64,000 bases of DNA, from the NCBI RefSeq assembly GCF_000724545.1, contig NZ_JHBV01000041.1:1-64000 (forward strand), in the 5' to 3' direction. How positions within the stretch are numbered: position 1 is the first letter of the stretch; each line of letters opens with the position of its first letter. Position numbers and translations under genes: made by a program. The notes beneath the pieces were generated by a model, which searched no databases, had not been told where the DNA came from, and worked only from the letters and a program-made list of their open reading frames with translations. The stretch comes from Aureispira sp. CCB-QB1 (GTDB taxonomy: Bacteria; Bacteroidota; Bacteroidia; Chitinophagales; Saprospiraceae). This document shows positions 10,841 through 57,400 of this stretch, in pieces.

Positions 10841-13840
10841 ATGCGACAACTTATACTCTTAGCATTTCTTGTCCTAAATTGTCACTCCTTAGCACAATCG
10901 CCCATCGACAACTTATTGGTAAAAATAGAGGATGCAAGTTCACAAGATAATCATTCATTAGTTGTAGAACTTTCTCTACAATTACAGCATCTCAACCCTC
11001 CAGATAGTGTCCTAATGGATGTGCTCTATTATCAAGCTCAACACGCGCAAGCACTAGGAGACTTTGAAACAGCTAACCATAGTTATTTGGCATTATTAGC
11101 TCTCATAGAGACGATACATGGAAAAGCCTCTATGCTTTACATATGGAACTTGGAGGATTATACCATGATGCTGTATCAATCAGGACAACAAGAAAAAGTT
11201 GTTACTTGGTATCAAGAAGCATTAACTACAGCTAAAGCCAATCAGCACTATTTAGAGTATGTTTACCTTGGTTATAGTTTGGGGGCTTATTATGAATTGA
11301 TTGGTGCCATGACGTATGCCATTCGCTCTTACAAAGATGCTCTGCAATTTGTTCCCAAATCAGGAGAAGAAAATGCTACCATCCATATTATGATTTTGCG
11401 TAGTTTGGCTCGTGTACTAGAAATTCAGCACCGTTACGACCAAGCAGAATCTCTATATAAAGAAGCCATCCAACTAGCCAAAGATACACTCCAAGAAAGT
11501 GACCCTAATCGATATATTTTAGTTAATGATTTTGGTATGCTCTATTTTTTTACTCGTCGATACAAAAAAGCATTGCCTCATTTCGAATACCTCAAACAAT
11601 TAATAGACAGCAAAAAAATTCCCATAGATTTCAACACAAGTTTACTCGCTAACTTAGCAGATTGCTATGCTCATTTGGGACGTTATAAAGAAGCAGAGAA
11701 TATCTATTTACAAGTTGAAGAAATAGAACGGACAACTATCGAAGACTCTTACTCCAACTACCCCGTTACCATTTCAAGAATGGGAGATTTATATGCTTTT
11801 CAGGGGCATTATGAAAAAGCCCGAACATTTCACTTACGTGCCATTGACTTGGCTAAAGAATACTTTTTGCCCCAAAATCTTTACTTATTTTATAACATGG
11901 AGCAAGCTTACTTATTTTTTGAAAGCATCAAAGATTGGCAACAAGTTCAAGCAATTGCTTTGGACTGCTTTAGAAGCAATTGCATGGATAGTATTGCTAC
12001 GCCCAATATTTTGGAGAACATCCAAAAACTGGCTCAAGAACAAACCTTTGCAACGATGCCTTATGCTCTAAAATCATTAAAAATTGCTAGCAAGAGTTAT
12101 TGGGAACGCTATTCAATAGAAAAAGATATTGATTTGTTACATCATGCTTATAATTTGCAGTTGGCTACTCGACTCATTCTACATCGACTCAAAAATTCAT
12201 TTTCAACAGAATGGGATAAATTAGAATTACTGTCTACTATACAAGAAATATCCGAACTAGGAATTCTAATCTCGCAAGCCTTGTATGAAAAAACAGGGGA
12301 TCTTGTTTACCAAAATAGTGCTTTTGATTTTCTGGAAAATAATAAATACGTTTTATTGCAAGAGGCATTGCAAAACAAAGAAGCAAAAGTATTTGGGAAT
12401 TTACCAGATTCTTTGATTCAAAAAGAAGAAGCTCTTGAACAAGGGCTGTTAATTGCTAAAACAAAAAAGATAAATGCGACAACTGCCCGTTCAAAGCAAA
12501 AAGCAATAGAGGATTACAATCGCATTTTAACAAAAATTGATCAATTTAAAATTAAACTACAAGAGCAATACCCTGCTTACTATGAGTACAAGTATGTTTC
12601 TAAAAAATTTTCTATCTCAGACCTACAAAAACAGCTGGACTCCTCAGAACTGCTTATTGAGTATTTCATTGGCAAAGAACACGTTTATATTTATTCTATA
12701 GATCATAAGAATGTTTATTATAACACCTTGCCTATTACTCAACAGATGATCAAAAATCAAGTAAAAAAATTCAGAAAAGTATTGTCTAATTATCAATATA
12801 TTCTAAAAAATAAAGACGCTGCTTTGCAAGAATACAAAACCTTAGCCTATTGGTTTTATAGTCAATTGGTGGCACCAGCAATAGACCCCTCTGGTAAGAA
12901 AGAACATTTGATTATTATACCTGATGGGTTACTGGGGCACTTGCCTTTTGAAGCTTTTTTAACTGTCGTTCCCAACCAAACTTCGCCACTTGATCAATTA
13001 ACTTTCTTGCTTCAAAGTCATAAAATTAGCTACGCTTATTCGTCAAATTTACTATCCAAAAATGTTTCCAAGGTTTTTCATAATTCTCAAATATTAGCGA
13101 TGGGTGCAACCTATACAGCCCTTCCTCCTAAAAATAACTTGAATCGAAGTGTAGAGTTGAGCAAGCTCAGAAAAAATTTGGCTCCGTTGGAAGCTATTAG
13201 TCACGAGCTAGAAGCACTAAAACCTATTGTACAAGGACGTTATTACTATGGTGAAGCTGCCAACGAAAAAACATTTAAAGCAGAAGCAAGCAACTATGCC
13301 ATCTTACACTTGGCAATGCATGGTATCTTAAATGAAAAGCACCCGATTTTATCTTCCTTAGCCTTTACTGAAGATGCAGATCCCGATGAAGATAATTTTT
13401 TACAAGCTTTTGAAATTTCTCAAATGAAACTAAATGCAGCACTAGTTGTCCTATCTGCTTGTGAAACAGGCTATGGAAAATTCAAACAGGGAGAAGGTAT
13501 TCTATCTTTAGCCCGTTCTTTTATGTATGCTGGTGTGCCTTCAATGGTGGTCTCTCTTTGGCAAGTCAATGATGGTAGCACCTCTATCATTATGAGTGCG
13601 TTTTATAAAAATTTAGCAGAAGGTATGGACAAAGCAGCAGCACTTCAAAAAGCTAAATTGGACTATATTCACCAAGCGCAAGGAGTAACAAGACATCCTG
13701 CTTTTTGGGCTCCATTTATTCAGCTTGGAGATGCTAGTCCCATTCCATTACAGGCAAAACGATTTCCATGGTGGTTATTAGGAACCATCGGGGTCTTATT
13801 TGCTTTATTCTTTATTTGGCGTATAAAACGAGAACAATAA
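10841..13840 (+). CDS. Exported TPR-CHAT caspase-like protein with C-terminal membrane anchor
   Basis: A 999-residue protein with a signal peptide (residues 1-19, ending LAQ). A long TPR array covers about 40-400 (for example YDQAESLYKEAIQLAK, YKEAENIYLQVEEIE), followed by a helical region with coiled-coil character (about 470-600). The CHAT protease domain covers about 640-965. The caspase-like dyad is intact: His827 in LHLAMHG and Cys874 in VLSACETG. The flanks GEGILSLARSFMYAGVPS and SLWQVND are standard. One transmembrane helix (about 973-993, LLGTIGVLFALFFIW) and a basic tail end the protein, so TPR and CHAT would face the periplasm. Tetratricopeptide-CHAT fusions are common in Bacteroidota and largely uncharacterised. 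No substrate gene is adjacent. Proteolytic activity is inferred from the dyad. Confidence 0.88.
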   Translation: MRQLILLAFLVLNCHSLAQSPIDNLLVKIEDASSQDNHSLVVELSLQLQHLNPPDSVLMDVLYYQAQHAQALGDFETANHSYLALLALIETIHGKASMLYIWNLEDYTMMLYQSGQQEKVVTWYQEALTTAKANQHYLEYVYLGYSLGAYYELIGAMTYAIRSYKDALQFVPKSGEENATIHIMILRSLARVLEIQHRYDQAESLYKEAIQLAKDTLQESDPNRYILVNDFGMLYFFTRRYKKALPHFEYLKQLIDSKKIPIDFNTSLLANLADCYAHLGRYKEAENIYLQVEEIERTTIEDSYSNYPVTISRMGDLYAFQGHYEKARTFHLRAIDLAKEYFLPQNLYLFYNMEQAYLFFESIKDWQQVQAIALDCFRSNCMDSIATPNILENIQKLAQEQTFATMPYALKSLKIASKSYWERYSIEKDIDLLHHAYNLQLATRLILHRLKNSFSTEWDKLELLSTIQEISELGILISQALYEKTGDLVYQNSAFDFLENNKYVLLQEALQNKEAKVFGNLPDSLIQKEEALEQGLLIAKTKKINATTARSKQKAIEDYNRILTKIDQFKIKLQEQYPAYYEYKYVSKKFSISDLQKQLDSSELLIEYFIGKEHVYIYSIDHKNVYYNTLPITQQMIKNQVKKFRKVLSNYQYILKNKDAALQEYKTLAYWFYSQLVAPAIDPSGKKEHLIIIPDGLLGHLPFEAFLTVVPNQTSPLDQLTFLLQSHKISYAYSSNLLSKNVSKVFHNSQILAMGATYTALPPKNNLNRSVELSKLRKNLAPLEAISHELEALKPIVQGRYYYGEAANEKTFKAEASNYAILHLAMHGILNEKHPILSSLAFTEDADPDEDNFLQAFEISQMKLNAALVVLSACETGYGKFKQGEGILSLARSFMYAGVPSMVVSLWQVNDGSTSIIMSAFYKNLAEGMDKAAALQKAKLDYIHQAQGVTRHPAFWAPFIQLGDASPIPLQAKRFPWWLLGTIGVLFALFFIWRIKREQ

Positions 13841-31697: not shown

Positions 31698-31890
31698 TCT
31701 AATTATAATATTCCAATTTTTTTAGCAAATAACTTGAATTAATAGTCCACTAAATCAGCGATCAAAACAAACTAAATACAATGAACTAACAAGTTGAGGC
31801 AAGATAGATAAAATAGTCTTATTCTTAGTCCGAATCAATCATTTTCTATATAGAGCAACACAAAAAGGAAGCTATAAATGTAAACAAAAA

Positions 31891-31924
31891 AAAAACCATC
31901 TTAAATAAATTTAAGATGGTTTTT
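31891..31924 (-). terminator. Terminator (bidirectional) after the PorE-like/DUF1573 unit
   Basis: A perfect 15-bp stem (31891-31905 with 31910-31924) has a 4-nt loop. A long A-run on its left becomes a T-run on the minus strand, so it ends the transcript coming from 35851. Confidence 0.85.
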
Positions 31925-31941
31925 TAAAGAGTATATCAACG

Positions 31942-32337
31942 TTATTTGGTAACGTTTGCTTCAATATCGTAAATAATCATATCATCAGGAACATTTCCAT
32001 AGATATTCAAACTTGACGAGTATGCTGGATCAACTTTAGCTTGTGAAGAATCAAATTTGAATTTCACAAACCCTTTTTCTCCTGGTTTGATTGCTCCTCT
32101 TGACCAATCAATTGGCTCTGTACAAATACAACCACCTTCTAAGTGAAATACTTTAAAATCATTTTTTCCAGTATTCGTAAATTCAACAGTGTATTCTTCT
32201 ACATCACCAAATTTCACAGGTCCGATCTTCATAACTGGTTCGTCAAAAGCCAAAGTAGTTCTTGGCTTATCTCCAGGATTATTAGAAGGAGAAGTCGTTG
32301 TACTAACTACGGTTGTATTAGCCGTTAGTTTTTTTTT
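31942..32337 (-). CDS. DUF1573 segment, probably expressed by -1 frameshift from the PorE-like gene
   Basis: This open segment encodes a DUF1573 domain (LAFDEPVMKIGPVKFGDVEEYTVEFTNTGK...VFHLEGGCICTEP...INPGE-like KPGEKGFVKF), an immunoglobulin-like fold usually found in exported proteins. It has no ATG. The only internal candidate start is a TTG at 32253, which would give 103 residues without a signal peptide. In frame above it lie 25 more codons encoding a Thr/Ser/Pro/Asn linker, reaching back to the A10 run at 32338-32329. That run overlaps the last codons of the PorE-like gene. Slipping by -1 on A AAA AAC just before the TAA stop would join the two into about 891 residues. Sequencing error or TTG initiation are alternatives. 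Confidence 0.7.
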   Translation of the reverse strand, partial: KKKLTANTTVVSTTTSPSNNPGDKPRTTLAFDEPVMKIGPVKFGDVEEYTVEFTNTGKNDFKVFHLEGGCICTEPIDWSRGAIKPGEKGFVKFKFDSSQAKVDPAYSSSLNIYGNVPDDMIIYDIEANVTK

Positions 32338-34616
32338 TCAGGGGCTCCGTTGATGCCCAATGTTCCATTCACAATTTTGAATTCTACACGACGGTTAAGT
32401 GCACGTCCTTCAGGATTATCAGAACCATCTGTTTTAGTATTATCAGCAGCAGGTTGTTGTTCACCTAAAGCTTTTGGTTGCAAACGGTTTTTGTCAATTC
32501 CTTTTTTAACCAAGTAAGCAATTGTCGCATTAGAACGTCTGTCAGACAAGCTGATATTGTATTGATCAGATCCCAAAGCATCGGTATGACCTCTTACTTC
32601 AACGATCATTTCAGGATTGTCTTTTAAAGTAGCCAATACCATATCCAAAGTATCAGCAGCACCTTGACGGATATTTGATTTATTGAAAGAGAAATAAACA
32701 TTGTAGAATACAGGAGGAGGCGTCAAATACATTTTTTGTACCATTCCCAAATCTTTTTGCGCTACAACTCTTGTGTCAGCAATATAACCTTCACGATTTG
32801 CAAAAATTTTGTAATCTTTATCTCTTGGCACAACGAAAGCAAATTCATTTCCTGTTCCTTTTGTCAATTGTTTTACTTCTTTACCAGAAGAAGCTTCGTA
32901 AATAATTACGGTAACGCCATCTAAAGCAGCATTGGTTTTCTTGTCAAATGCTTGAACCATCAAACCAAGTTCTTTGATTTTAACTTCTTTAGTAATCTCC
33001 ATTGGTTTAGTAATATCTAGACCTGCAGCAGTCAATGCTTCTTTAGTCGCATCAACACTTTCTTTGCTACCCTCTACACCATCTTTTTTAGCAACGATAT
33101 CATACTTTTTCCCCATATCAAGGCTAAACGTATAATCGTTTCCTTCTGTATTACTTTGCTCATCTACAACTTTACCAGTTTCTTTATCAATCAACTGAAC
33201 AGTTGCACCAATCATTGGCTCTCCTGTTGCTTCATCCATTACCGCAACATCCATAATAATATCACAACGCTCTGGCATAATTACAGAGAAAATATCATCA
33301 CAACAAGTTTCGCTTTTCATGGACATAGTACCAGGACGGTTAGACAAGATATAAGCATAACAATCATCTTTTCCTACTTTGTTCACTGTAAAACTAAAGT
33401 CATCTACATAAGTATTAAAACCAGCACCCATGTTAACAACTTTTCCCATAGAACCATCAGCAGCACGCTCTGTACGGAAAATATCCCATCCACCAAAACC
33501 AGGGTGTCCATCTGAACTAAAGTACAATGTATTGTTTCTTTCGTCAAAGAACGGTGTTAAATCATCTCCAATTGTATTAACTGCTTCCAAGTTTAATGGC
33601 TCTTTAGTCGTACCATCTTCATTGATCTCAGCATACCAGATATCCATACCACCTTTACCACCTTCCATGTTAGAAGTAAACAACAAGTAATCTTTTCCAT
33701 CCCATGTTGCAAAAGCAGGATCTTGACAAGAGTAAGAACTAGAGTTAAAATCTAGCAATTTAGGGTTGCTAACAGTACCATCTGCATAATCAGCTACATA
33801 GATACGACTGTTTTCCAATTGATTACCAATCAACTCAGCACGTACAAAATAAAACTTCGTTTGATCATCGTTAAAAGCTGGTTCAACAACATGCAATCCT
33901 TCTTTTTGAAGAACATCAGCATTAAATTCTTTTGCTTCTCCCCATTTGCCATCGCCTTCTGATTTAGCGATATAAATTTTAGCATGCTCATAATCCTCAC
34001 CTTCTTCTTTTACAATAATTGTATCTGCACGCAAAGAAGCATAGATAATTTCATCACGTCCCAATGGGAAAGCCCCACCTTCTGTAGACAAAGAGTTAAC
34101 GTTAGGACCAGCATTTTCAATAATTAATTCCTCTGTTGGTTCCATGTTATTTTTAGCCCATTTAGCACCATCGATGTGGATTTGAGCCATTTTTTTGTAG
34201 TAATCTGCCTTTGGCGCATCTGATGGATACTCTTTGATAAAGGCTTCAAACTCTGGAATACAGTTGTCATAATCTCCTGTCATTTTCATAACAACAGCAT
34301 GCTCATAACGACTCAATGGAAATTCATCTTTTTTATTTAGAGCAACTAATTTTTGGTACCATTCAGCAGCAGCTTTGTAGTCTCTCAACATTTCATTGGT
34401 GGAAGCTATTTTGTAAATAGCAGCACCATCATTGTTATCTGCTTCATAAGCACGTATATACCATTCTAAAGCAGTGTAGGTATTCTTTTTATTGCGTTCT
34501 TCATCTCCGATATTTTCCTTCATTTCGGAGGTTAAGTTATTATTTGTTGGTTGAGCAAATGCAGCTTGACCAACAAATAGTAAAGCAATAATTACTAATA
34601 TATTATTAAGTTTCAT
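32325..34616 (-). CDS. PorE-like T9SS-associated protein: TPR, beta-propeller, CNA-like, OmpA
   Basis: A 763-residue periplasmic protein with signal peptide (ending AAFAQ). Domains in order: TPR repeats (about 30-145), a PD40/WD40-like propeller (about 165-440, blades such as EPAFNDDQTKFYFVRA, NTLYFSSDGHPGFGGWDIFRT), and two carboxypeptidase-regulatory-like domains (about 450-535 and 548-630). An OmpA peptidoglycan-binding domain covers about 639-755 (VEVRGHTDALGSDQYNISLSDRRSNATIAYL). This order matches PorE of the T9SS, which links the translocon to peptidoglycan. Unlike the Porphyromonas protein it has no lipobox. It follows a PorP/SprF gene on the same strand. Its last codons form an A10 slippery run leading into a DUF1573 frame. 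Confidence 0.9.
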   Translation of the reverse strand: MKLNNILVIIALLFVGQAAFAQPTNNNLTSEMKENIGDEERNKKNTYTALEWYIRAYEADNNDGAAIYKIASTNEMLRDYKAAAEWYQKLVALNKKDEFPLSRYEHAVVMKMTGDYDNCIPEFEAFIKEYPSDAPKADYYKKMAQIHIDGAKWAKNNMEPTEELIIENAGPNVNSLSTEGGAFPLGRDEIIYASLRADTIIVKEEGEDYEHAKIYIAKSEGDGKWGEAKEFNADVLQKEGLHVVEPAFNDDQTKFYFVRAELIGNQLENSRIYVADYADGTVSNPKLLDFNSSSYSCQDPAFATWDGKDYLLFTSNMEGGKGGMDIWYAEINEDGTTKEPLNLEAVNTIGDDLTPFFDERNNTLYFSSDGHPGFGGWDIFRTERAADGSMGKVVNMGAGFNTYVDDFSFTVNKVGKDDCYAYILSNRPGTMSMKSETCCDDIFSVIMPERCDIIMDVAVMDEATGEPMIGATVQLIDKETGKVVDEQSNTEGNDYTFSLDMGKKYDIVAKKDGVEGSKESVDATKEALTAAGLDITKPMEITKEVKIKELGLMVQAFDKKTNAALDGVTVIIYEASSGKEVKQLTKGTGNEFAFVVPRDKDYKIFANREGYIADTRVVAQKDLGMVQKMYLTPPPVFYNVYFSFNKSNIRQGAADTLDMVLATLKDNPEMIVEVRGHTDALGSDQYNISLSDRRSNATIAYLVKKGIDKNRLQPKALGEQQPAADNTKTDGSDNPEGRALNRRVEFKIVNGTLGINGAPEKKN
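32329..32338 (-). promoter_or_regulatory. A10 slippery site immediately before the PorE-like stop codon
   Basis: On the minus strand the end of the gene reads GAA AAA AAA AAC TAA. The heptamer A AAA AAC is a classical -1 frameshift site. After slippage the next codon is CTA at 32328-32326, in the frame of the DUF1573 segment. The run could equally promote transcriptional slippage. Confidence 0.6.
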
Positions 34617-34723: not shown

Positions 34724-35851
34724 TTAAAAACGAGGACAGAATAAGATATCATCAATAACAGGTACTTTGTAAATTTTAGCAACATAAGACAATGCTACTT
34801 CAAATGCCATACCTCTGTTATTATTACTAAATGCTTGATAGTTCAAACCTTGTGCAGCTGTATTGATATCATATGCAAAACCAAATTTTAGTCCTTTAAT
34901 ATCTAAGCCTATACGAGCAACAGCATCACCACTAGCACGGTAACCACCTCCCAAATATAATGTAATATCTTGCATATCGTTGAAGTGAATCCCTAACAAT
35001 AACTGCCCGTTGAATTCAAATGCGCTCAAACCTTCTCCTTGACCAGTTGTATTGATTGTATTTTGGAAGAAGAACAAAGGTTTCAAGAACAAGTTACCTT
35101 TTTTAGTTAATGCAATTCTAAAAATCAAATTAGAAATAGTAGTCATTGGTAATCTTGCTTCACCATCCTCATTTGTTTGAGGTGTCATAAAGCTATAATT
35201 AGGATTCGTAAAATGATTCAAAGACACTCCTGCCTCAAAACCAAAACGTCTACCTCTATGGCTCAACATCAAACCACCAGAAAAATCAGGCAATGTTTTA
35301 GTAGCATTTCCTAAAGACATGCCCAATGGGTCAGTCGTAGCATTACCACCATTAACCAACTGATCTTCAAATGTAAAATCTCCAGAAAGTCTACGTTGTA
35401 AGATACCACCTTTGGCAGCAAAAGATAAGATTGTATTTCCTTTTTTGCCCAAGCCCAAGTGATAAGACAAAGACAAACTAGCAGCTAAGTTAGAAAGGTT
35501 TCCTACGGCATCATAATAAAAAGAAATACCAACACCTGCCCAATTTCTAAGTGGCTTGCCTTTTTTATTACGAATAGCAAAAGGAACGTCAATATAAGCA
35601 GATGGCGTTTGGAATCCTGAAAAGCTTGAGGAAGTATTATCAATAGATGGAGCTTGAGAAATAGACAATCCTGCCCATTGAGTTCTATATATACCACCTA
35701 TTCTAAAAGTACCTGCATAATATCCTGTATGTGCAGGATTTAGCTCTAGTGGAGCCATGTCAAACATCGTAAAACGAACGTCTTGAGCTTGGCTACTGGA
35801 TGTACAAAAACCTACTATAAAAAGCAGGCATACACTCGTTAAAATTTTCAT
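34724..35851 (-). CDS. PorP/SprF family T9SS membrane protein
   Basis: A 375-residue outer-membrane protein of the PorP/SprF family. A signal peptide ends at SSSQAQ. The family opening VRFTMFDMAPLELNPAHTGYYAGTFRIGGIYRTQWAGL follows, then strand-turn patterns (GVGISFYYDAVG, LSLSYHLGLGKKGNTILSFAAKGG). The C-terminus is a strand-rich barrel end. PorP/SprF proteins form part of, or dock substrates to, the type IX translocon. The PorE-like gene follows after a 107-bp gap with a hairpin, matching the known PorP-PorE functional link. Confidence 0.92.
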   Translation of the reverse strand: MKILTSVCLLFIVGFCTSSSQAQDVRFTMFDMAPLELNPAHTGYYAGTFRIGGIYRTQWAGLSISQAPSIDNTSSSFSGFQTPSAYIDVPFAIRNKKGKPLRNWAGVGISFYYDAVGNLSNLAASLSLSYHLGLGKKGNTILSFAAKGGILQRRLSGDFTFEDQLVNGGNATTDPLGMSLGNATKTLPDFSGGLMLSHRGRRFGFEAGVSLNHFTNPNYSFMTPQTNEDGEARLPMTTISNLIFRIALTKKGNLFLKPLFFFQNTINTTGQGEGLSAFEFNGQLLLGIHFNDMQDITLYLGGGYRASGDAVARIGLDIKGLKFGFAYDINTAAQGLNYQAFSNNNRGMAFEVALSYVAKIYKVPVIDDILFCPRF

Positions 35852-42348: not shown

Positions 42349-45300
42349 ATGTTTAAAACTTCAATTTTAACTTTACTATTATTGGTGTTATCCATTCACT
42401 TAGTTTCTGCACAAGCAGCAGCTAATTTTGATGGCACTGATGATAAAGCAACGGTTTATCACCACAGTGATTTTAACCTATCTACCCACGATTTCACCAT
42501 AGAAGCTATGGTTCGAGATGTTGCCTTAGAAAGCCCCATGCTTACCATCATCTCTAAAAGAAATTTAGCTAGCAATGGCTTTGCCTTAATGATTAATACA
42601 CAGGATGGCATGCAACTAATTGCTGAAATTGGCAAAAACAGATATGAGGTCAATACTTCTGTTTTTGAAGATCGGCGATGTCATTCCGTTGGGCTACGAC
42701 GTTCTAGGGATGAAATAACTTTATTTATAGATGATAAAGCCTATCCTCTAGGCAAAAACACGACGAACATCAACACCACTGAAAATCTAATTATTGGTGA
42801 CGATGGTTCCAATACACACCAACCTTTTGAGGGGTACATTGAAGAAGTTCGCTTTTGGAAAGATGCTCGAACGGATGGAGAAATTTTTGACTGGAACCAA
42901 AAATGTATTCCTTCCTCCAGCAGTGATTTACTGGCTTTGTGGAATATTGAGGAAAATACAGGGCAATTTTTTCACGATGTTGCCAGCATTCAACACCATG
43001 CTTATTTAGGCAGTGGTTTTAGCAGCGACAATCAAGATCCTCTTTGGGCTTCTAATGAGTGTTTGGAATCTTGTTGCGGAACAAAAGCCGATTTTAATGT
43101 TTCATTGACTACTCCCAAAGCATATCAGTATGTCAATTTTACGAATACTAGTATTAATGCAACCAGCTATGTATGGATGGTTAATGGCACCGTAGAAGCA
43201 ACAACAACTGACTTTAAATTTGGTTTTCCGATTGGTACACATATCGTTCGGTTATTAGCTAAAGACAGATCTTGCCAAAGCATGCAATCTTGGGTCGTTG
43301 AAGTAACTGATTTCTTAGACAACTGTGGTGCTCCTACCAACATCTCTCCTTGCCCTCCTGACCCACTACTACACGAAAAGCCGCAGATGCGTATCTTGGA
43401 TGGTTTTGGCAATTGCTATAGTCCAGAAGAACTAGCATTACCGACTCCTATGGTAACTAGAAGTAATGTTCCTGGTTACCCTCCTGGACAGGTTTGCGAA
43501 TGTGGCATTTTTACCTTGTATTATCAAGATGTTATCAACAATACAGATGTTGGATTTGATGATCCTGCTGCCCCACAAGGCACAGGTTTCACAACCTTGG
43601 GAGAAGAAAGAAGAGCCTCACTTTGCCGAGTTTTCGAAGACTTAACCCTACTTATTGGCGCCAATCCTACTGCTAGTAACTTGGGCGTAGAAGATCTCAG
43701 AATTACGGTTGGCGCTTCTGACGGAACAGGTGCACTTGCTCTACCTAACAATGCTGTAGCAGCAGCAAGCTCTTACTTTTTTGAACTAACTTCTCCTAAT
43801 ATTCATAAATTTGCATTGGGGGAAGTTGGAAGAACAATTATCGGAGGTAGGGACTCGTATCAGGATTGGTTGTTGTATAATCCCGTTGTTGCTAACGATC
43901 CTCATGGAATTGTTCAATTTAATTTTGCAAACGCATCGTTTAATTCAGACTTAGCATCCATCACAGGAAACCATATATATGTAGTTGGTCTACATGAAGT
44001 TATCCATGCACTAGGTTTCCGATCTTTGATTGGAGGAACCAATGGTCCTAGTCGATTTGCTAGTAGTAATGCTCCTAATATATATGCCTACTGGGATCAA
44101 TTTATAGAAAGTAATCAAACTCCTGTTATCAATAGCACCATTACCAACAACAATCTTTCTTTGAGTTTTACGACCAATACCGTCAATAGTTGTGGTTCGC
44201 CTAATGCCACCAACGGACTTGCTTTAGATGGCATTTCTGCTGCGGGGAATCATCCTGTTTATTATAATGGGACATATCAAGAAGGGAGTTCTTTTAGTCA
44301 TTTTAACTGTACAGCAGGGGTATCTGGGTATGTCATGAATTTTAGCGGTATTGCTAGCATTACTCCTAATCCATTGGAAGTAGAAACTTTGTGCAAATTG
44401 GGTTATACTATTTCCGGAACATTTGGGCAAAACTTAACTGCGTCCAATCAAAGCAATACATTGGCTACTTACAATGCCTGTACACCTTCTAATTGTATTC
44501 CCATAGGATTTACAGATGTTCAAGATCCCAATAACTTGGGCAATCCATTTACAGTCAATAGGAATGGCACGAACAACCAAATTACCATTGACTTTTCAGA
44601 CTTATTAGCCAATGATTTTGTCCCTGCTGGAACTACAATCGAAAACCTTCAAATTTTGCAGGGCGGTGGTACACTATCAGCTACTAGTTCTAATGGAAAT
44701 ACTTCCTTTACCTACAGTCCAGATTTAGGGTATGGTCTTTCATGGGCATCTCTTAGTTATGTTCCTAGATGCCCAAGTGGCGAATTGGGTGAAATTGTTT
44801 ACGTTTATATTTGGGTACCTGCAGCACCTTATCCTGCTTGCGATATTCCTACCAATGCTTGTAATTTAGTTTGTAATTACGACTTTGAAGCTTTTGCTCC
44901 TAGCATATTCCAAGGCATCCATTCTCAGTTAGAAAATTATTGGTTTTCTTATGGCAATATCCGAGCTTTAAATCGATCATGTGATTTGCATGGTTACGAC
45001 ATCAACAACCTTCCAGGGACACACCCTTTTTTATGCGGACAGATACCACTTCCTGTTGATTTTCCACAAAAAAACAATTACATTGGTATTGTGCTAAATA
45101 CGAACACATCCGAGTCATTTAATTTAAAATTACAACCAGGAACAACTCTAACACCATCGACAACCGATAACTATAGAATTGGCTTTTGGGTTTGGACTTG
45201 CCAACCACAAGATTTTGACGTAAGAGTAGCTTTCCTCCCTGCAAGTCCATGTGCTTCTCAATATACTGACTTACAGGACGCTTCTGGCTACCAACCACCT

Positions 45301-48186
45301 TGGTTAAATCCATTGTATACAGGAACCGTTTGTGCTAGTTTTACAAATCCCAATGACAAATTCAACTTACAAATTCCTGTTTCCAATCCAACGACAGCAG
45401 GAAATGGCAATTGGTTTTATGTCACACAAGATTTTCATACTACTGTCCCTAACTTACAAGAATTTATTGTTCATTTGGATCAAGCCAATGTAGCCAATAA
45501 TCTGTATGTTCTTTTTGATAACTTTACAATAGAATCGCTGACAACTCCTAAAATTAATATTTCTTCTACTATTATTGGAGGCACTTGCCCAGGAGCTACC
45601 CCTATGATCCGTTACACCATTGAAGGAGATGCTAGCATACCAGTCAATGCTCCTTTAACCAATGTTCAATTAGACATTACCCTACCAACAGGAATACCTG
45701 CCAACTTAAGTTGGGCAACAGGTGGCGACTTTGTTAATGGACAACACACAATTCCATCCTTGGCACAAGGTGATATTGTCACCTTAGATTTACCACTTAA
45801 TATCAGCGCCAATGCTCTAGTTGGTTCTTCTAACCAAGTTCTTATTGAGCCCACCATTGCAGGAGCTTGTGTTTCAGCATTTTCTAATCAGTCTACCAAT
45901 ATTATTGTCACCAATACTGCTAGCCAATTAGCCATCAATACCAGCATATTGAACAGTACTCCAACTAGTGCACAATATGAAATTAGTGTTACCAACAATG
46001 GTCCCGACGGTATCTACAATATTGATCTAGAGGTTCCAACGGTAAATGGCTTAACCTTTACATTTAATCCTCCTTTATTCGATCTTTTGCCTGGAGCAAC
46101 ACAAACATTTACATTAAATAGTACGTTCTCTATTACTTCTGGGTGTCCTGTTCTTTGTGCAGAAATTCACGCTGCAAGTTTTGCTTGTAATCTACCTGTC
46201 TCAGGCTGTGCTCCTCCTGTTTCTATTGGATCAGGTGGAAATAGCATTGATTTTCCAATAGAAGCAGAAAATACAGCTCATACAGATCCAACTCTTTTTA
46301 CAGCAACAGCAATTAGCAACAATAATGATGTTTATAGTGTAGGAATTTTTAGTAATGATATTGATTTTACAGATGGCAGCAATACAAATACTTTAACCAA
46401 AAATCATAGCTGTGCTAGTGGCTTCAGTCCATTTCTAGTAAAATACGGAGCTTGTGGTTTTGAATGGGCAGTTGAAATACCTGTTTGTAACTTGGTTGAC
46501 TTGAAAGTAGGTCCAGACGTTGAACTTGGACAAAACGGTGATGCTTATGTTTCTTTTTCATTTATAGGCTCTTTTACAATTAATGGCACGACTTATACCA
46601 GTCAAGGCGGTTCTGACATTGCAATCATAAAATATGATGCGACAGGAAATCCTATATGGGTACAAACTGCGGGTGGAAATGGCGATGATTTAGTGACCGA
46701 TCTTGAAACCTATAACAACGGCACCAATGAGCAAGTAGCTATTATTGGAACGCTGATCGGAAGCTCTCCCAATGTTGCAACCTTCTCTAATACCCTAAGT
46801 GTTAACTATAATAACCTAGGTAATTTTTGCTCTGGCTGTTCTCTCCCTGGAGGTATTACTTATGTAGCATCCTACACAGACAATGGCACTACGAATACAG
46901 TCAACTGGGTGAATTCTTTAAGCAATACAGCTACTTTTTCTGGAAAACTAGATATTGATCCAACAGGCAATATCTATGCAATTGGAACAACAAACTCTGG
47001 TTTTACATTTAATGGTTTGACTGTAGGCGCAACAACAACAGCCGTCAATGAGGGTGCTCCATCTTTTGCCAACAACGACATTGATTTGTTTGTTTTAAAA
47101 TACAATAACTTAGGAAACGAACTATGGGCAGAAGTCTATGGTAGTAATAAATTTGATTTTGGATACCTAGAAGGAATGGGGTTGGAATTTGATATCGAAT
47201 GTGAGGGCTCAACCCATTTGGGCATATTACTTCCTAGTGCAGCTACTATAGCTTCAGGTAGTCAACCATATATGCAGAATTATGGAACTCATTTACTTCG
47301 ACTAAATGCCAATAATGGTAGTCTAGATTGGGTACAGCCTCTAGCTTTACCATCAACCACCCCCAATACTACTTTAACTGGAAACACAACTTATCGTTCT
47401 AACTTAGCTATTGATGGCACTAATTACATTGTAAATGGTAGCTTTTTCTTGAGTGATCCTAATGGAGTATCTCCTAGTGGATTTGCCAGTATTGATTTTC
47501 ATGGCACGACACTTAGTTATACATCAATGAGTGCTCACCCTGCTTATGATAGGTATCAAGGAACCTTCACCCTAAGCTTTAATAATACTGGAGCAATACA
47601 ATGGGTCAATGAAAATAGCACCATTGTTCCTCTTAGCCCTGCCATAGACATGCATGCGTCTCTTGCTATTTTAGGCGTGGAAGTAGACAATTCGGGAGAT
47701 ATTTACAGCCCGTTCTTCCTTAGGGGCACAACAACTTTAGGCTCTGACAACTTAACGGGTGGTGTCAATGGCAATCAAGATGTTGTAGATGGATTTATTA
47801 GCAAAATAGATGGCAACTTGGGGAATTATCTTCGCCCTAATGTTAATTCACCCAACACAAATAGTTTGAATGATGTCACTACCATAGGTAATCATCAAGC
47901 TTTGACAACAACTGAAACTATTACTAACTCAAATTTATCAACTAGATTATACCCTAATCCAACCACAGGAAAGGTAACTTTAGAAATCAAGAGTGACCTA
48001 GCAAACAATCAAATAGAGTACATTACTATTTATGATGTAACGGGTAGAAAAGTACAAGAAATTAATACCCAAACTTCTCAAAATAGTTTTGACATCAACT
48101 TGAGCAGCCAACAAGCTGGTGTCTATTTTGTCGAAATGATGATTAATCAAGAATTGATTACCAAACGAATTGTTTTAATGAAATAA
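42349..48186 (+). CDS. Giant T9SS-secreted protein with LamG-like, leishmanolysin-like metalloprotease and propeller regions
   Basis: A 1,945-residue surface or secreted protein. A signal peptide ends at LVSAQ. A LamG/concanavalin-like domain covers about 25-230 (NFDGTDDKATVYHHSDFNLS...). A PKD-like segment covers about 245-325. A metalloprotease region (about 390-690) has zinc motif HEVIH (His549, Glu550, His553), a probable third ligand His651 in SFSHFNC and a Met-turn Met663 (GYVMN), as in leishmanolysin-type metzincins. Two DUF11-like sandwiches (about 1065-1300) and an SBBP-like propeller (about 1310-1840) follow. A T9SS type A tail starts at LYPNPTTGKVTLEI. The next gene is a paralogue sharing an almost identical tail. 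Protease activity is inferred. Confidence 0.88.
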   Translation: MFKTSILTLLLLVLSIHLVSAQAAANFDGTDDKATVYHHSDFNLSTHDFTIEAMVRDVALESPMLTIISKRNLASNGFALMINTQDGMQLIAEIGKNRYEVNTSVFEDRRCHSVGLRRSRDEITLFIDDKAYPLGKNTTNINTTENLIIGDDGSNTHQPFEGYIEEVRFWKDARTDGEIFDWNQKCIPSSSSDLLALWNIEENTGQFFHDVASIQHHAYLGSGFSSDNQDPLWASNECLESCCGTKADFNVSLTTPKAYQYVNFTNTSINATSYVWMVNGTVEATTTDFKFGFPIGTHIVRLLAKDRSCQSMQSWVVEVTDFLDNCGAPTNISPCPPDPLLHEKPQMRILDGFGNCYSPEELALPTPMVTRSNVPGYPPGQVCECGIFTLYYQDVINNTDVGFDDPAAPQGTGFTTLGEERRASLCRVFEDLTLLIGANPTASNLGVEDLRITVGASDGTGALALPNNAVAAASSYFFELTSPNIHKFALGEVGRTIIGGRDSYQDWLLYNPVVANDPHGIVQFNFANASFNSDLASITGNHIYVVGLHEVIHALGFRSLIGGTNGPSRFASSNAPNIYAYWDQFIESNQTPVINSTITNNNLSLSFTTNTVNSCGSPNATNGLALDGISAAGNHPVYYNGTYQEGSSFSHFNCTAGVSGYVMNFSGIASITPNPLEVETLCKLGYTISGTFGQNLTASNQSNTLATYNACTPSNCIPIGFTDVQDPNNLGNPFTVNRNGTNNQITIDFSDLLANDFVPAGTTIENLQILQGGGTLSATSSNGNTSFTYSPDLGYGLSWASLSYVPRCPSGELGEIVYVYIWVPAAPYPACDIPTNACNLVCNYDFEAFAPSIFQGIHSQLENYWFSYGNIRALNRSCDLHGYDINNLPGTHPFLCGQIPLPVDFPQKNNYIGIVLNTNTSESFNLKLQPGTTLTPSTTDNYRIGFWVWTCQPQDFDVRVAFLPASPCASQYTDLQDASGYQPPWLNPLYTGTVCASFTNPNDKFNLQIPVSNPTTAGNGNWFYVTQDFHTTVPNLQEFIVHLDQANVANNLYVLFDNFTIESLTTPKINISSTIIGGTCPGATPMIRYTIEGDASIPVNAPLTNVQLDITLPTGIPANLSWATGGDFVNGQHTIPSLAQGDIVTLDLPLNISANALVGSSNQVLIEPTIAGACVSAFSNQSTNIIVTNTASQLAINTSILNSTPTSAQYEISVTNNGPDGIYNIDLEVPTVNGLTFTFNPPLFDLLPGATQTFTLNSTFSITSGCPVLCAEIHAASFACNLPVSGCAPPVSIGSGGNSIDFPIEAENTAHTDPTLFTATAISNNNDVYSVGIFSNDIDFTDGSNTNTLTKNHSCASGFSPFLVKYGACGFEWAVEIPVCNLVDLKVGPDVELGQNGDAYVSFSFIGSFTINGTTYTSQGGSDIAIIKYDATGNPIWVQTAGGNGDDLVTDLETYNNGTNEQVAIIGTLIGSSPNVATFSNTLSVNYNNLGNFCSGCSLPGGITYVASYTDNGTTNTVNWVNSLSNTATFSGKLDIDPTGNIYAIGTTNSGFTFNGLTVGATTTAVNEGAPSFANNDIDLFVLKYNNLGNELWAEVYGSNKFDFGYLEGMGLEFDIECEGSTHLGILLPSAATIASGSQPYMQNYGTHLLRLNANNGSLDWVQPLALPSTTPNTTLTGNTTYRSNLAIDGTNYIVNGSFFLSDPNGVSPSGFASIDFHGTTLSYTSMSAHPAYDRYQGTFTLSFNNTGAIQWVNENSTIVPLSPAIDMHASLAILGVEVDNSGDIYSPFFLRGTTTLGSDNLTGGVNGNQDVVDGFISKIDGNLGNYLRPNVNSPNTNSLNDVTTIGNHQALTTTETITNSNLSTRLYPNPTTGKVTLEIKSDLANNQIEYITIYDVTGRKVQEINTQTSQNSFDINLSSQQAGVYFVEMMINQELITKRIVLMK

Positions 48187-54499: not shown

Positions 54500-57400
54500 A
54501 TGATAAAAACTACTTACAAAAAACTGCAACTCTTACTCTGTTGTCTGTTCTTTTGCTCGATTGGCTATACGAGTTGGGGGCAGGCTAATATACAGGTTCG
54601 AGTAACTTCTATCGAAGTTTTAAATAATCAAGACTGCGATAATGTTTTGTTTAACATAACAGGTGACAGTGATTTTATGTGGGAATATAAAGTCACTGAT
54701 AATACAATTGGAAGGACAAATAATAATGCCAACTTAATTTCTGGTGGAGAAATTAGTAGCCTATTCTCAGCTCAAGCTAACTATGCTTTAGTCAGTGGAA
54801 ATAATGGTCCTTATGTAAGAACTACTCCTAATAATTCCATTTTTGAGCCAGGTAATGGTATATTTTTTGACTGGGATTATGTCTGCCCTACTGACGTGCC
54901 AACTTCCCTTAATTTTGAATGGGCCGCTTACGAAGCCGATGAACCTATATTTGGTTCTGGAATTACTGTTCTTAGCAAAGATGCGAATACAGGAATTATC
55001 AATCAAACTTTGAGTGTTCCTGCATCTGGAGTCAGTGCTCCTCAAACATTTACAACATCTGCTTCTAATGGTAACTGTAGCCAAACTTATACTATAACAG
55101 TAGAAGTTACTAGAACAAATTTAGTCATCAACAATTGGGAAGATAATATTTGCAATGCCTCTCAAATTGTTGTAGGTACAAGTGATACACGTGCGTGGTG
55201 TCCAAACTGTACATTAGAACCTAATGAACCACACCAAGGAGATGTATCCAATAACCGTTCACGTTGGTTTTATTTTATTGCACCTCCTAGTGGTGAAGTT
55301 GATATTAGCACGGATAATGGTAACACAGACTTTGGAACCTATATTGAAATATATCACGCTGCTGATGGTGTTGGATGTACTTCTGGACTTCAACCTGTAA
55401 GCGGAACTTTGATTAAAGATAAATTTGAGTATTTATCCCACATCAACAATGCAGACTTAGGTGGATTTGCTAATATCCAAGGTGAAGCGGATATCACATT
55501 TACAGCCTGTGATCCTGTGAGCGGTTTTAGTAATCAAAAACTGCATCCTGGCGAGGCGTATTATGTACAATTGACCACAGATGATGCTAATGAAAGAGGT
55601 TATATTGAGGTTTCTGTTTCTGATTTAGGTGGAAGTTCTCCTCCTGATATAGAGGATATTCCTTGTACGGCTCCTACTACTTCTTTTGGAACGACTCCCA
55701 TTAGCTCTTCGGCAGGTAGCCCTGCTACAATTAACCTCAATTTTGGATGCGCCTTGGACGGAGGCAACGACAATGGTGAAACAGGAGCAGCTCATACCAA
55801 TAATAATCCTGACAATTATCATGCTTATGATTACGACCATCCAGCTGTTAATAACAACACAATGAATGAGTCGGTTTGGTTTAAATTTACAGCTCCAAAC
55901 AGTGGACGAATTGTTTTCGAAACAGATTATCAAAGTGGTATCTACAGTGAAGGCTCTGCATTTTTTGCTAATGATGCTCGATTCGCTCCAGGTGTTCCTT
56001 CTGATTACTCTTGTGCAAACTTGACGAATGTTTCAGCAGCAGATGGAGGTCTAAATGGACTTTTAGGAGGTGCTGCAGAAAGTGCAATCATTATGGAACA
56101 GTGCTTAGAACCTGGTTACACCTATTATGGGATGGTTGACCCTGCCAATAACTTAACTCTTATCAATTCTCAAGATATAGATGTATGGTTACACGATCCT
56201 AGTACTTCCGACCCTGCCAACAACCCTCCACCAAACGACATTTTATGCTTGAGTATGCTAGATACCCTATTTGAGGTTCCTGTTAAGCCAGCCAATCAAA
56301 CCATTCCATTTTCGGCAGTAGCGGGTGATAATACCAACGCTTGTATTGAAACCTTGGCAGGAGAACCTTTTTCTAATCCCAATCCAGCAGCACGTGCTGA
56401 TCAAACCGTTTGGCACTATTTCACCGTACCACCATCAGGAGTGGTAGAAATTAAGTTGCGTGCTTATGTCGGTTTGGATAGTCTAAATTATGCTATTTAT
56501 CCTTTGTTCCAAGATAGTTTGTGTTATGGAGGTTTGCAACCAGCCACCTATACCACTGATGGGACACAAGCAACACCACAAATTACAGCTGAATTTAGTG
56601 GTACCACAGGCTTTAATGGAGATATAATAGGGCTTTGTTGCTTGACTCCAGGAACAGTATATGCCATTCAATTAGATGGTGGACACCCTGGCGATGAAGG
56701 ACAATACATTATTGAATACATCAATGAAATTGAGGTATATGCAGGGGATGCTCAATATAGTGTCTTGGGCGATACCGTTAACTTTATGGCAAGCGATACA
56801 GGTTTTGTCTGCTTTGGTGATACACTTTTCCCTAGTGTCATGGTAGATGGAAATGGTGTTTCAACAACAAACATTGCCAACTGTTTGGATATTGGATACA
56901 TCGTTCAAGATAGCGTCAATATTCCTGATTCAATCATTAATGGTAACTTTACTTTTATTGACTCTGTTTATGCTCGCCCACACTATTGGGTGAATGATGG
57001 TACGCATCCATTTTCTCAAAATGCAGTTCATTATGTTGGTCCTATGGCTGATGAAACAGCAACCTGGGGTTCTTTAACTTGTCCTAGTGCAAGTTCTGAG
57101 AATGGTGCTCCATTTGTTTTCCTAAGCGAAATTATTTTAACCACGAATTATAATTCCAATAATTGTATTATTGATTTTAGTGCAACAGGTGGTTTCCCTA
57201 GTTATAACGGAAGTTTATTTGATTATTGGATTACCAATACAGCAGGCGATACCGTGCTTATGGGACAAACCGCAGTTGGGCTAACCAACCAATACGCTAT
57301 TCCAGTTGCCGATACCTTTACCATAGTTATTACCGATGGAATGGGATGCAACCAAACAGCTATTGTTGATGCTACTCCTTGTTTAGATCCTTGTGTCAAC

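Follow-up and report, generated by a model that had tools for sequence, protein, structure and literature searches.

To our knowledge, few chromosomal, non-mobile bacterial genes make productive use of slippage by RNA polymerase. On A-rich sites the reading frame may also be shifted by the ribosome. In Escherichia coli dnaX, a −1 ribosomal frameshift takes place at A_AAA_AAG, for which seven bases, a Shine-Dalgarno (SD)-like element and a stem-loop are needed. In the dnaX gene of Thermus thermophilus, which gives tau and gamma, it is the polymerase that slips. According to the part of PMC5009743 available to us, the Thermus polymerase has a 9-10 bp hybrid, slips efficiently at 9 A or T and adds one or more A's at dnaX. 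The same part reports that slippage at Shigella spa13 produces a C-terminal extension of 112 aa, representing 25-30% of the product. The locus described here belongs to a 64,000-nucleotide stretch of the marine bacterium Aureispira sp. CCB-QB1 (positions 1 to 64,000 of contig NZ_JHBV01000041.1; this whole stretch is called the window). In the window, an open reading frame (ORF) for a PorE-like protein with an OmpA domain ends on a run of ten A (A10), behind which a DUF1573 domain is encoded in the −1 frame. Such a frame transition on runs of nine to eleven A (A9-A11) is real, conserved and recurrent. We propose that RNA polymerase probably undergoes a programmed slip on this run, so that one gene would encode two secreted proteins.

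Thermus dnaX offers a parallel in several respects, as judged from the available part of PMC5009743: a homopolymer of 9, a chromosomal gene, two products and a C-terminal part that is gained or lost. However, the long form is encoded there in a single ORF, whereas the short form is the default at the window locus. Moreover, the protein is another one, and slippage has been shown experimentally in Thermus while it is predicted from sequence at the window locus. Shigella spa13 and mxiE share with it a slippage-made C-terminal extension in a secretion-system (type III) gene (PMC5009743, same part), but they are plasmid-borne, belong to another family and are likened by layout alone. Finally, insertion sequence (IS) elements with A8-A10 runs and mapW have a conserved A9 run joining two ORFs. 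In the accessible part of PMC1088944 they are either mobile or a candidate whose alleles are uninterrupted in some of the strains, whereas the present case concerns an envelope family in several lineages.

The PorE-like ORF (32325..34616, minus strand) codes for 763 aa plus a stop, with TPR, PD40, carboxypeptidase-regulatory and OmpA domains, and would give the default short product. Read directly in the gene's frame, its 3′ end is GCC CCT GAA AAA AAA AAC TAA, as the first-pass annotation of the window had stated. The proposed slippage site is exactly A10 (32329..32338, minus strand; T10 on the plus strand), and the TAA stop of the short form (32325..32327, minus strand) lies 1 nt past it. The same 1-nt spacing is observed in 21 of the 31 split-frame loci tabulated in this study, where the run varies from A9 to A11. 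Directly above the run, the −1 frame is closed by a TGA, whose first base lies 13 nt ahead of the ORF stop. From the run onwards, this frame reads without interruption through 131 codons to its own TAA (31942..32337, minus strand), encoding KKK, a linker and a complete DUF1573 domain. This organization had also been predicted and is borne out. The long form would thus count 760 + 131 = 891 residues; the size and the export put forward at first pass are supported, the signal peptide being shared by both predicted forms. The predicted trans-frame tryptic peptide of the fusion is LTANTTVVSTTTSPSNNPGDKPR.

The linker (32272..32328, minus strand) is made of Thr, Ser, Pro and Asn and is of variable length. 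It is predicted to be disordered, with a predicted local distance difference test (pLDDT) score <50 at residues 1-4 and 6-21 of the modelled extension. The DUF1573 domain (31951..32250, minus strand) is recognized by PF07610 over extension residues 30-129 (E-value 1.2e-14; 54.5 bits for a gathering threshold of 26.1) and modelled with a mean pLDDT of 85.8. It would be an Ig-like/PapD-like beta sandwich of the ASH/HYDIN type: Foldseek retrieves PapD-like, ASH and HYDIN Ig domains (best E-value 4.5e-5), among them 2qsv of P. gingivalis. A CxC motif (C70 and C72 of the extension) is invariant across 11 aligned extension rows. A terminator-like hairpin followed by a T tract stands just past the DUF1573 stop (31890..31925, minus strand), and a scan of the same strand from the OmpA stop to DUF1573 found no hairpin; OmpA and DUF1573 are therefore probably carried by one transcript. 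Only two runs of at least 10 A or T occur in the window. One of them is the T tract of this terminator-like hairpin and the other is the coding A10, the placement of which thus exceeds chance.

Of the seven other Aureispira species, six have an orthologue of the ORF (62-86% identity); neither a close orthologue nor an extension was found in the species represented by G007. In all seven Aureispira copies, including that of the window, the ORF ends with GAAAAAAAAAAC followed by TAA or TAG (A10) or, in L014, with GAAAAAAAAAGT followed by TAA (A9). In all seven, the run is immediately preceded by a stop of the −1 frame and followed, in this frame, by a linker and DUF1573. The linkers differ in length and sequence, DKPRT being kept in the −1 frame in five of the seven species. 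A profile built from 11 extension rows was then searched in 398 genomes of the family and in 298 genomes of the order (L074/L107 and L077/L108 are duplicate fetches). It matched 16 of the former, namely eight Aureispira, six members of a second genus and two others, and its three matches in the order were all among those already known. When the order was searched with the extension of L144, listed frames of about 790 aa or more occurred only in the window's family. (The L143 extension also matches the NCBIfam OS_HP2 (seleno)protein model, with 38.8 bits for a cut-off of 100.) In all 16 genomes the extension is out of frame behind A9-A11, the run being A10 except in L014 (A9) and L077 (A11). 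The frame needed is −1 in 15 of them and +1 in one (L110, from a 320-contig assembly). An alignment of orthologues had been suggested at first pass as a check on the run and on the two frames; such conservation is found.

The coding run is also A10 in G060, a second assembly (2 contigs) of the window's species; the A10 length, for which the first pass had named reads with A9 or A11 as a refuting observation, holds between the two assemblies. Over a 3.4-kb stretch G060 differs from the window by 8 substitutions and one indel, the latter located in the terminator T tract (31886-31895), which reads T10 in the window sequence but T9 in G060.

With the seven Aureispira species pooled, the ratio of non-synonymous to synonymous changes (pN/pS) is 0.185 in DUF1573, 0.624 in the linker and 0.313 over the last 120 OmpA codons. 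Five pairs from a second paralogue group, described below, give 0.14-0.44 for the extension and 0.14-0.28 for the OmpA end. These ratios indicate that the extension is under purifying selection in its own frame. Together with the presence of the layout in 33 genomes, including the assemblies in 2-5 contigs G003, G060, G087, G181, G244 and G287, such selection makes a sequencing error or a recent pseudogene hardly conceivable, even though homopolymers are error-prone and many of the genomes are metagenome-assembled genomes (MAGs).

How translation reaches the extension may be judged from its start codons. In 22 of the 31 split-frame loci, the extension lacks any ATG, GTG or TTG upstream of its last 105 codons, a limit that falls at about the domain start. 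In L077, none is found in the whole extension frame, and in L075 and L076 the first one is located about 50 residues into it. It had been claimed that the −1 frame of the window holds no ATG. This was not correct, because an ATG (32230..32232, minus strand; MKIGP) is present inside DUF1573, and the TTG at 32253 corresponds to the edge of the domain. This ATG, the sole one able to start most of the domain separately, is found in all seven Aureispira species and is missing in L075, L076 and L077. Conceivably, DUF1573 could be a cytoplasmic domain with a synthesis of its own, through internal initiation or through re-initiation past the OmpA stop. The MKIGP codon would suit such a mechanism, as would the start codon found before the domain in nine of the 31 loci (an ATG in six of them) and the true separate genes that adjoin the OmpA gene in other relatives. 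However, no signal peptide is visible by eye behind any of these starts, and the Aureispira ones fall at the domain edge or inside it. In addition, the linker lying ahead of the ATG retains DKPRT in the −1 frame in most Aureispira species, L075, L076 and L077 would have late starts or none, and DUF1573 encoded as a neighbour gene carries its own signal peptide, with no A-run there. Separate production of the domain therefore seems very improbable. Since most of the loci lack a start codon before the domain and, by eye, none of those present opens a signal peptide, DUF1573 is most likely translated by ribosomes coming from the upstream ORF.

The DUF1573 domain of the in-frame relative L096 was searched in 199 genomes of the family, where OmpA-DUF1573 proteins are common. 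Adjacent OmpA/DUF1573 pairs were gathered by profile and position, regardless of the run. Among the matches listed, to which the counts below refer, 122 were examined: 30 automatically fetched, 54 short-frame ones (chosen, not all) and 38 long-frame ones. A second paralogue group emerged, with split-frame loci in 17 more genomes in which DUF1573 has no signal peptide of its own. The junction is A9-A11 in all 17, the frame needed being −1 in 16 and +1 in L139. In eight loci, DUF1573 has its own ATG and a signal-peptide-like stretch, a class set by eye from these two features with the runs in view, not blind. Seven of these genes follow the OmpA gene at a distance of no more than about 125 nt. 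The eighth (L193) is 306 nt from an OmpA gene that is probably unrelated, and it is nevertheless included in the count of zero out of eight for an A-run of 7 or more near DUF1573. A separate DUF1573 gene with ATG and signal peptide had been named at first pass as an observation that would speak against slippage. Such genes do exist, but the run is absent where they occur. In at least four of the eight the signal looks by eye to be of the lipoprotein type. DUF1573 thus looks exported in two-gene relatives, as would suit a domain acting in the periplasm next to the OmpA protein.

The in-frame OmpA-DUF1573 relatives have the same domain order but consist of a single ORF, so that no slip is needed; L121 (the same gene as L096), L127 and L133 are examples. 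In a first set of 24 distinct fusions, including L089 and L096, the longest A-run near the junction is 7. All 38 long-frame rows are one-ORF fusions as well, with at least nine A near the junction in two and A8 in three. In total, a junction run of at least nine A is found in 17/17 split-frame loci, compared with 2/62 fusions and 0/8 separate genes (Fisher 2e-15 and 9e-7, which are not exact probabilities, the loci being related). The fusion count includes L124, despite an in-frame TAA inside its DUF1573, as well as L126 and L177, whose OmpA is truncated and which do not figure in the tree described below. The two fusions with long runs are the exceptions to the class, being in frame with A9 (L253, in G094) and A10 (L256, in G204). 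In L256, the OmpA and DUF1573 domain matches abut. In L253, one added A would bring a stop directly after the run. On its sequence, L253 is a mirror layout, with the same two predicted products and the long form as the default. Two forms are not expected from in-frame relatives, except perhaps from L253 and L256.

These exceptions bear on the possibility of phase variation at the DNA level, according to which replication would change the tract length and switch the extension on or off between cells, with no programmed slip. Homopolymers do mutate here, as illustrated by the T tract of the terminator, T10 in one assembly and T9 in the other. Likewise, L157 (G012; A9, −1) and L139 (G145; A11, +1) belong to one genus (g6) and their runs flank the in-frame length, which points to mutation of the tract in this lineage, and the runs of L253 and L256 leave the two domains in frame. 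On the other hand, the search that delineated the window's orthologue group was blind to frame, and it returned 16/16 genomes out of frame, 15 of them in one phase. With both groups taken together, junctions of at least nine A are out of frame in 33 genomes and in frame in two, where random phase would place about one third in frame (the lineages are related). Furthermore, the coding A10 is constant between the two assemblies of the window's species, which differ in the nearby T tract. We consider phase variation improbable as the explanation.

A quick maximum-likelihood tree of 60 loci, computed from the OmpA and DUF1573 columns, requires at least 8 changes of the slip-coupled label. The well-supported branches alone force 3 changes (24 of the 57 inner branches, the root and the direction of change are not resolved). 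Slip-coupled, fused and two-gene loci are interleaved in it.

Which kind of slip is involved was approached through the avoidance of A-runs in genes. For this purpose, 400 kb each of G060 (36.0% GC) and G087 (45.9% GC) were used, and ORFs of at least 100 aa were compared with 60 synonymous shuffles. The real/shuffled ratios for exact A6, A7, A8, A9 and A10 runs are 1.13, 1.11, 0.88, 0.12 and 0.00 in G060 and 1.43, 1.14, 0.83, 0.23 and 0.27 in G087; the A9 counts behind these ratios are small (2 vs 16.5 and 2 vs 8.9, respectively). Runs of at least nine A are thus avoided in genes (2 vs 28.5 in G060, 3 vs 17.1 in G087), whereas in-frame A_AAA_AAG is not (1.04 and 1.12). As for the junctions of the 31 tabulated loci (G060 and G287 count among the 33 genomes but are outside this table), the run is 9 in five, 10 in 23 and 11 in three, and never shorter than nine. 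The following base is C in 14, T in 10 and G in 7. The frame needed is −1 in 29 and +1 in two (L110 and L139). The slip site had been proposed at first as A_AAA_AAC. A run of at least nine A is indeed found in 31/31 loci, but the heptamer is not the conserved element, the next base being C, T or G. An X_XXY_YYZ heptamer in the right phase is present but does not discriminate, since any run of nine or more contains A_AAA_AAN. Because the hazard starts at nine A whatever the phase and all 31 junctions have nine or more, slippage of the polymerase fits better than a ribosomal −1 shift.

Programmed ribosomal −1 frameshifting on A_AAA_AAA or A_AAA_AAN would yield an identical 891-residue fusion with mRNA of uniform sequence, and E. 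coli dnaX resembles the present locus in its −1 shift and A-rich site. Together with the start codons described above, several points count against polymerase slippage as proposed here. The excess of −1 over +1 (29 to 2) may also be read as ribosomal −1 shifting, for which a stop directly after the run would be appropriate. Since A9-A11 always contains A_AAA_AAN, ribosomal shifting is possible on the same sites, alone or additionally. A downstream stem-loop with z ≤ −2 is predicted in 5 of 14 loci (z is positive in two), and an SD-like tetramer is present upstream in 4 of the 14. In-frame A_AAA_AAA is somewhat depleted (0.74 in G060, 0.86 in G087); its ratios in the other two phases (0.64-0.73) are as low or lower, which is what the removal of longer runs alone would produce. 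The avoidance of nine or more A in genes may equally reflect replication slippage; in the available part of PMC1088944 also, avoidance alone cannot separate replication from transcription slippage. Lastly, only a few genera (16/398 genomes) have the extension in the form seen in the window, and most genomes compared are draft assemblies or MAGs.

With respect to the ribosomal mechanism, however, seven bases suffice, whereas all 31 loci have at least nine A, and such heptamers seem harmless here, in-frame A_AAA_AAG being unavoided in genes. A consistent downstream RNA stimulator was sought in the 14 loci and not found. The run of 9-11 A and the inconsistency of the stimulator set the locus apart from E. 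coli dnaX, and L110 and L139 need the +1 frame. We therefore regard ribosomal frameshifting as unlikely, though the least so among the alternatives. A search for tRNA genes in 16 of the 20 G060 stretches found none.

The approach followed in the part of PMC1088944 available to us combines run avoidance with a comparative criterion, namely the same layout and run in non-identical homologues and an extension under selection. Here, layout and run are kept in non-identical homologues and the extension is under selection. Whole-genome counts of A9 followed after 0-3 nt by TAR are 171 (G060), 217 (G003), 47 (G087), 42 (G244) and 29 (G287), compared with 154, 207, 25, 29 and 30 for the reversed pattern, a comparison in which non-coding sites are counted too and which carries little information; in G087, a wider pattern gives 106 vs 73. 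When other junctions with at least eight A were sought in 400 kb from each of G060 and G087, one candidate appeared. It is L226 (G087:C1:20001-40000, around 13699, minus strand), where A8 near the end of a 102-aa ORF precedes, in the −1 frame, a 293-aa ABC-transporter-like ATPase; this junction could be an ordinary overlapping start.

In the mechanism that we favour, RNA polymerase would copy the A10 tract so that most transcripts keep A10 and direct the synthesis of the 763-residue OmpA protein, ending right past the run. A fraction of the transcripts would carry A11 (or A8). On these, the ribosome would enter the −1 frame and bypass the stop, whereby the linker and DUF1573 would be added to give 891 residues. 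Short and long forms, an idea already present at first pass and supported by the present comparisons, would have the signal peptide and the OmpA domain in common and differ only by a flexible arm with an Ig-like domain. The slip rate would then set the share of cell-wall-anchored molecules bearing DUF1573. The −1 bias (29/31 loci) would be explained if A's are added, as they are by slippage at Thermus dnaX in the available part of PMC5009743. On the sequences compared, transcriptional slippage is the likeliest mechanism. We infer from them slippage at the RNA level, its frequency and the role of the extra domain, as well as a two-isoform function.

A literature search in one open library found no report of frameshifting or slippage in Aureispira, Saprospir- taxa or the type IX secretion system (T9SS), nor of an OmpA-DUF1573 slip; OmpA and DUF1573 are not mentioned in the main text of PMC3711429. 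From the loci compared, we judge this to be productive slippage in envelope proteins, a case that is new and apparently recurrent.

The identity of the upstream protein deserves some comment. In Pfam, OmpA (9.6e-19) and CarboxypepD_reg (1.1e-9) are above cut-off, whereas TPR and PD40 are below. With these weaker hits included, the window protein matches the domain order of PorE, TPR, beta-propeller, carboxypeptidase-regulatory domain and OmpA, as laid out in the part of PMC7192894 used for comparison. The description 'PorE-like' therefore holds for the domain order, but the name PorE would be too strong: NCBIfam T9SS_PorE gives 232.6 bits for a cut-off of 600, and CHU_0125_OmpA 278.5 for a cut-off of 620, so that neither is reached. 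The signal peptide ends, by eye, with AFAQ and has no nearby Cys. The OmpA domain of PorE has been shown to bind peptidoglycan (PMC7192894, same part), and the structure entry 6TOP of that study matches the window protein at 1.5e-14. By analogy, the OmpA domain of the window protein should bind peptidoglycan as well. The link with the T9SS rests on the domain order and on the gene located upstream of the ORF, a member of the PorP/SprF family (34724..35851, minus strand; PF11751 1.2e-32; TIGR03519 132.2 bits for a cut-off of 90.55), the PorE cut-off being unreached.

In the whole genome of the window organism (G000), the PorE-like query has 23 matches at E ≤ 0.001, indicating a large paralogue family. 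Elsewhere in the window, two ORFs of 1945 and 1658 aa (42349-48186 and 54500-59476, plus strand) end in T9SS sorting domains (Por_Secre_tail, CHU_C) and are likely secreted surface proteins. A 999-aa TPR-CHAT protein is encoded at 10841-13840 (plus strand; CHAT 4.6e-61).

For annotation, what appears in these genomes as a 'short OmpA protein plus orphan DUF1573 fragment' is probably a single gene from which two products are made. About thirty natural replicates, together with fused, split and slip-coupled relatives, make run-length threshold, direction and selection comparable within one family. It is tempting, though slightly more doubtful than not, to imagine that slippage on A9-A11 is a repeatedly evolved switch setting the DUF1573 share of peptidoglycan-anchored, T9SS-associated OmpA proteins. 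Lineages would then move between one-ORF, two-gene, slip-coupled and mirror layouts because both forms are needed in a given ratio. If this is true, the make-up of an envelope anchor would be regulated by the error rate of transcription.

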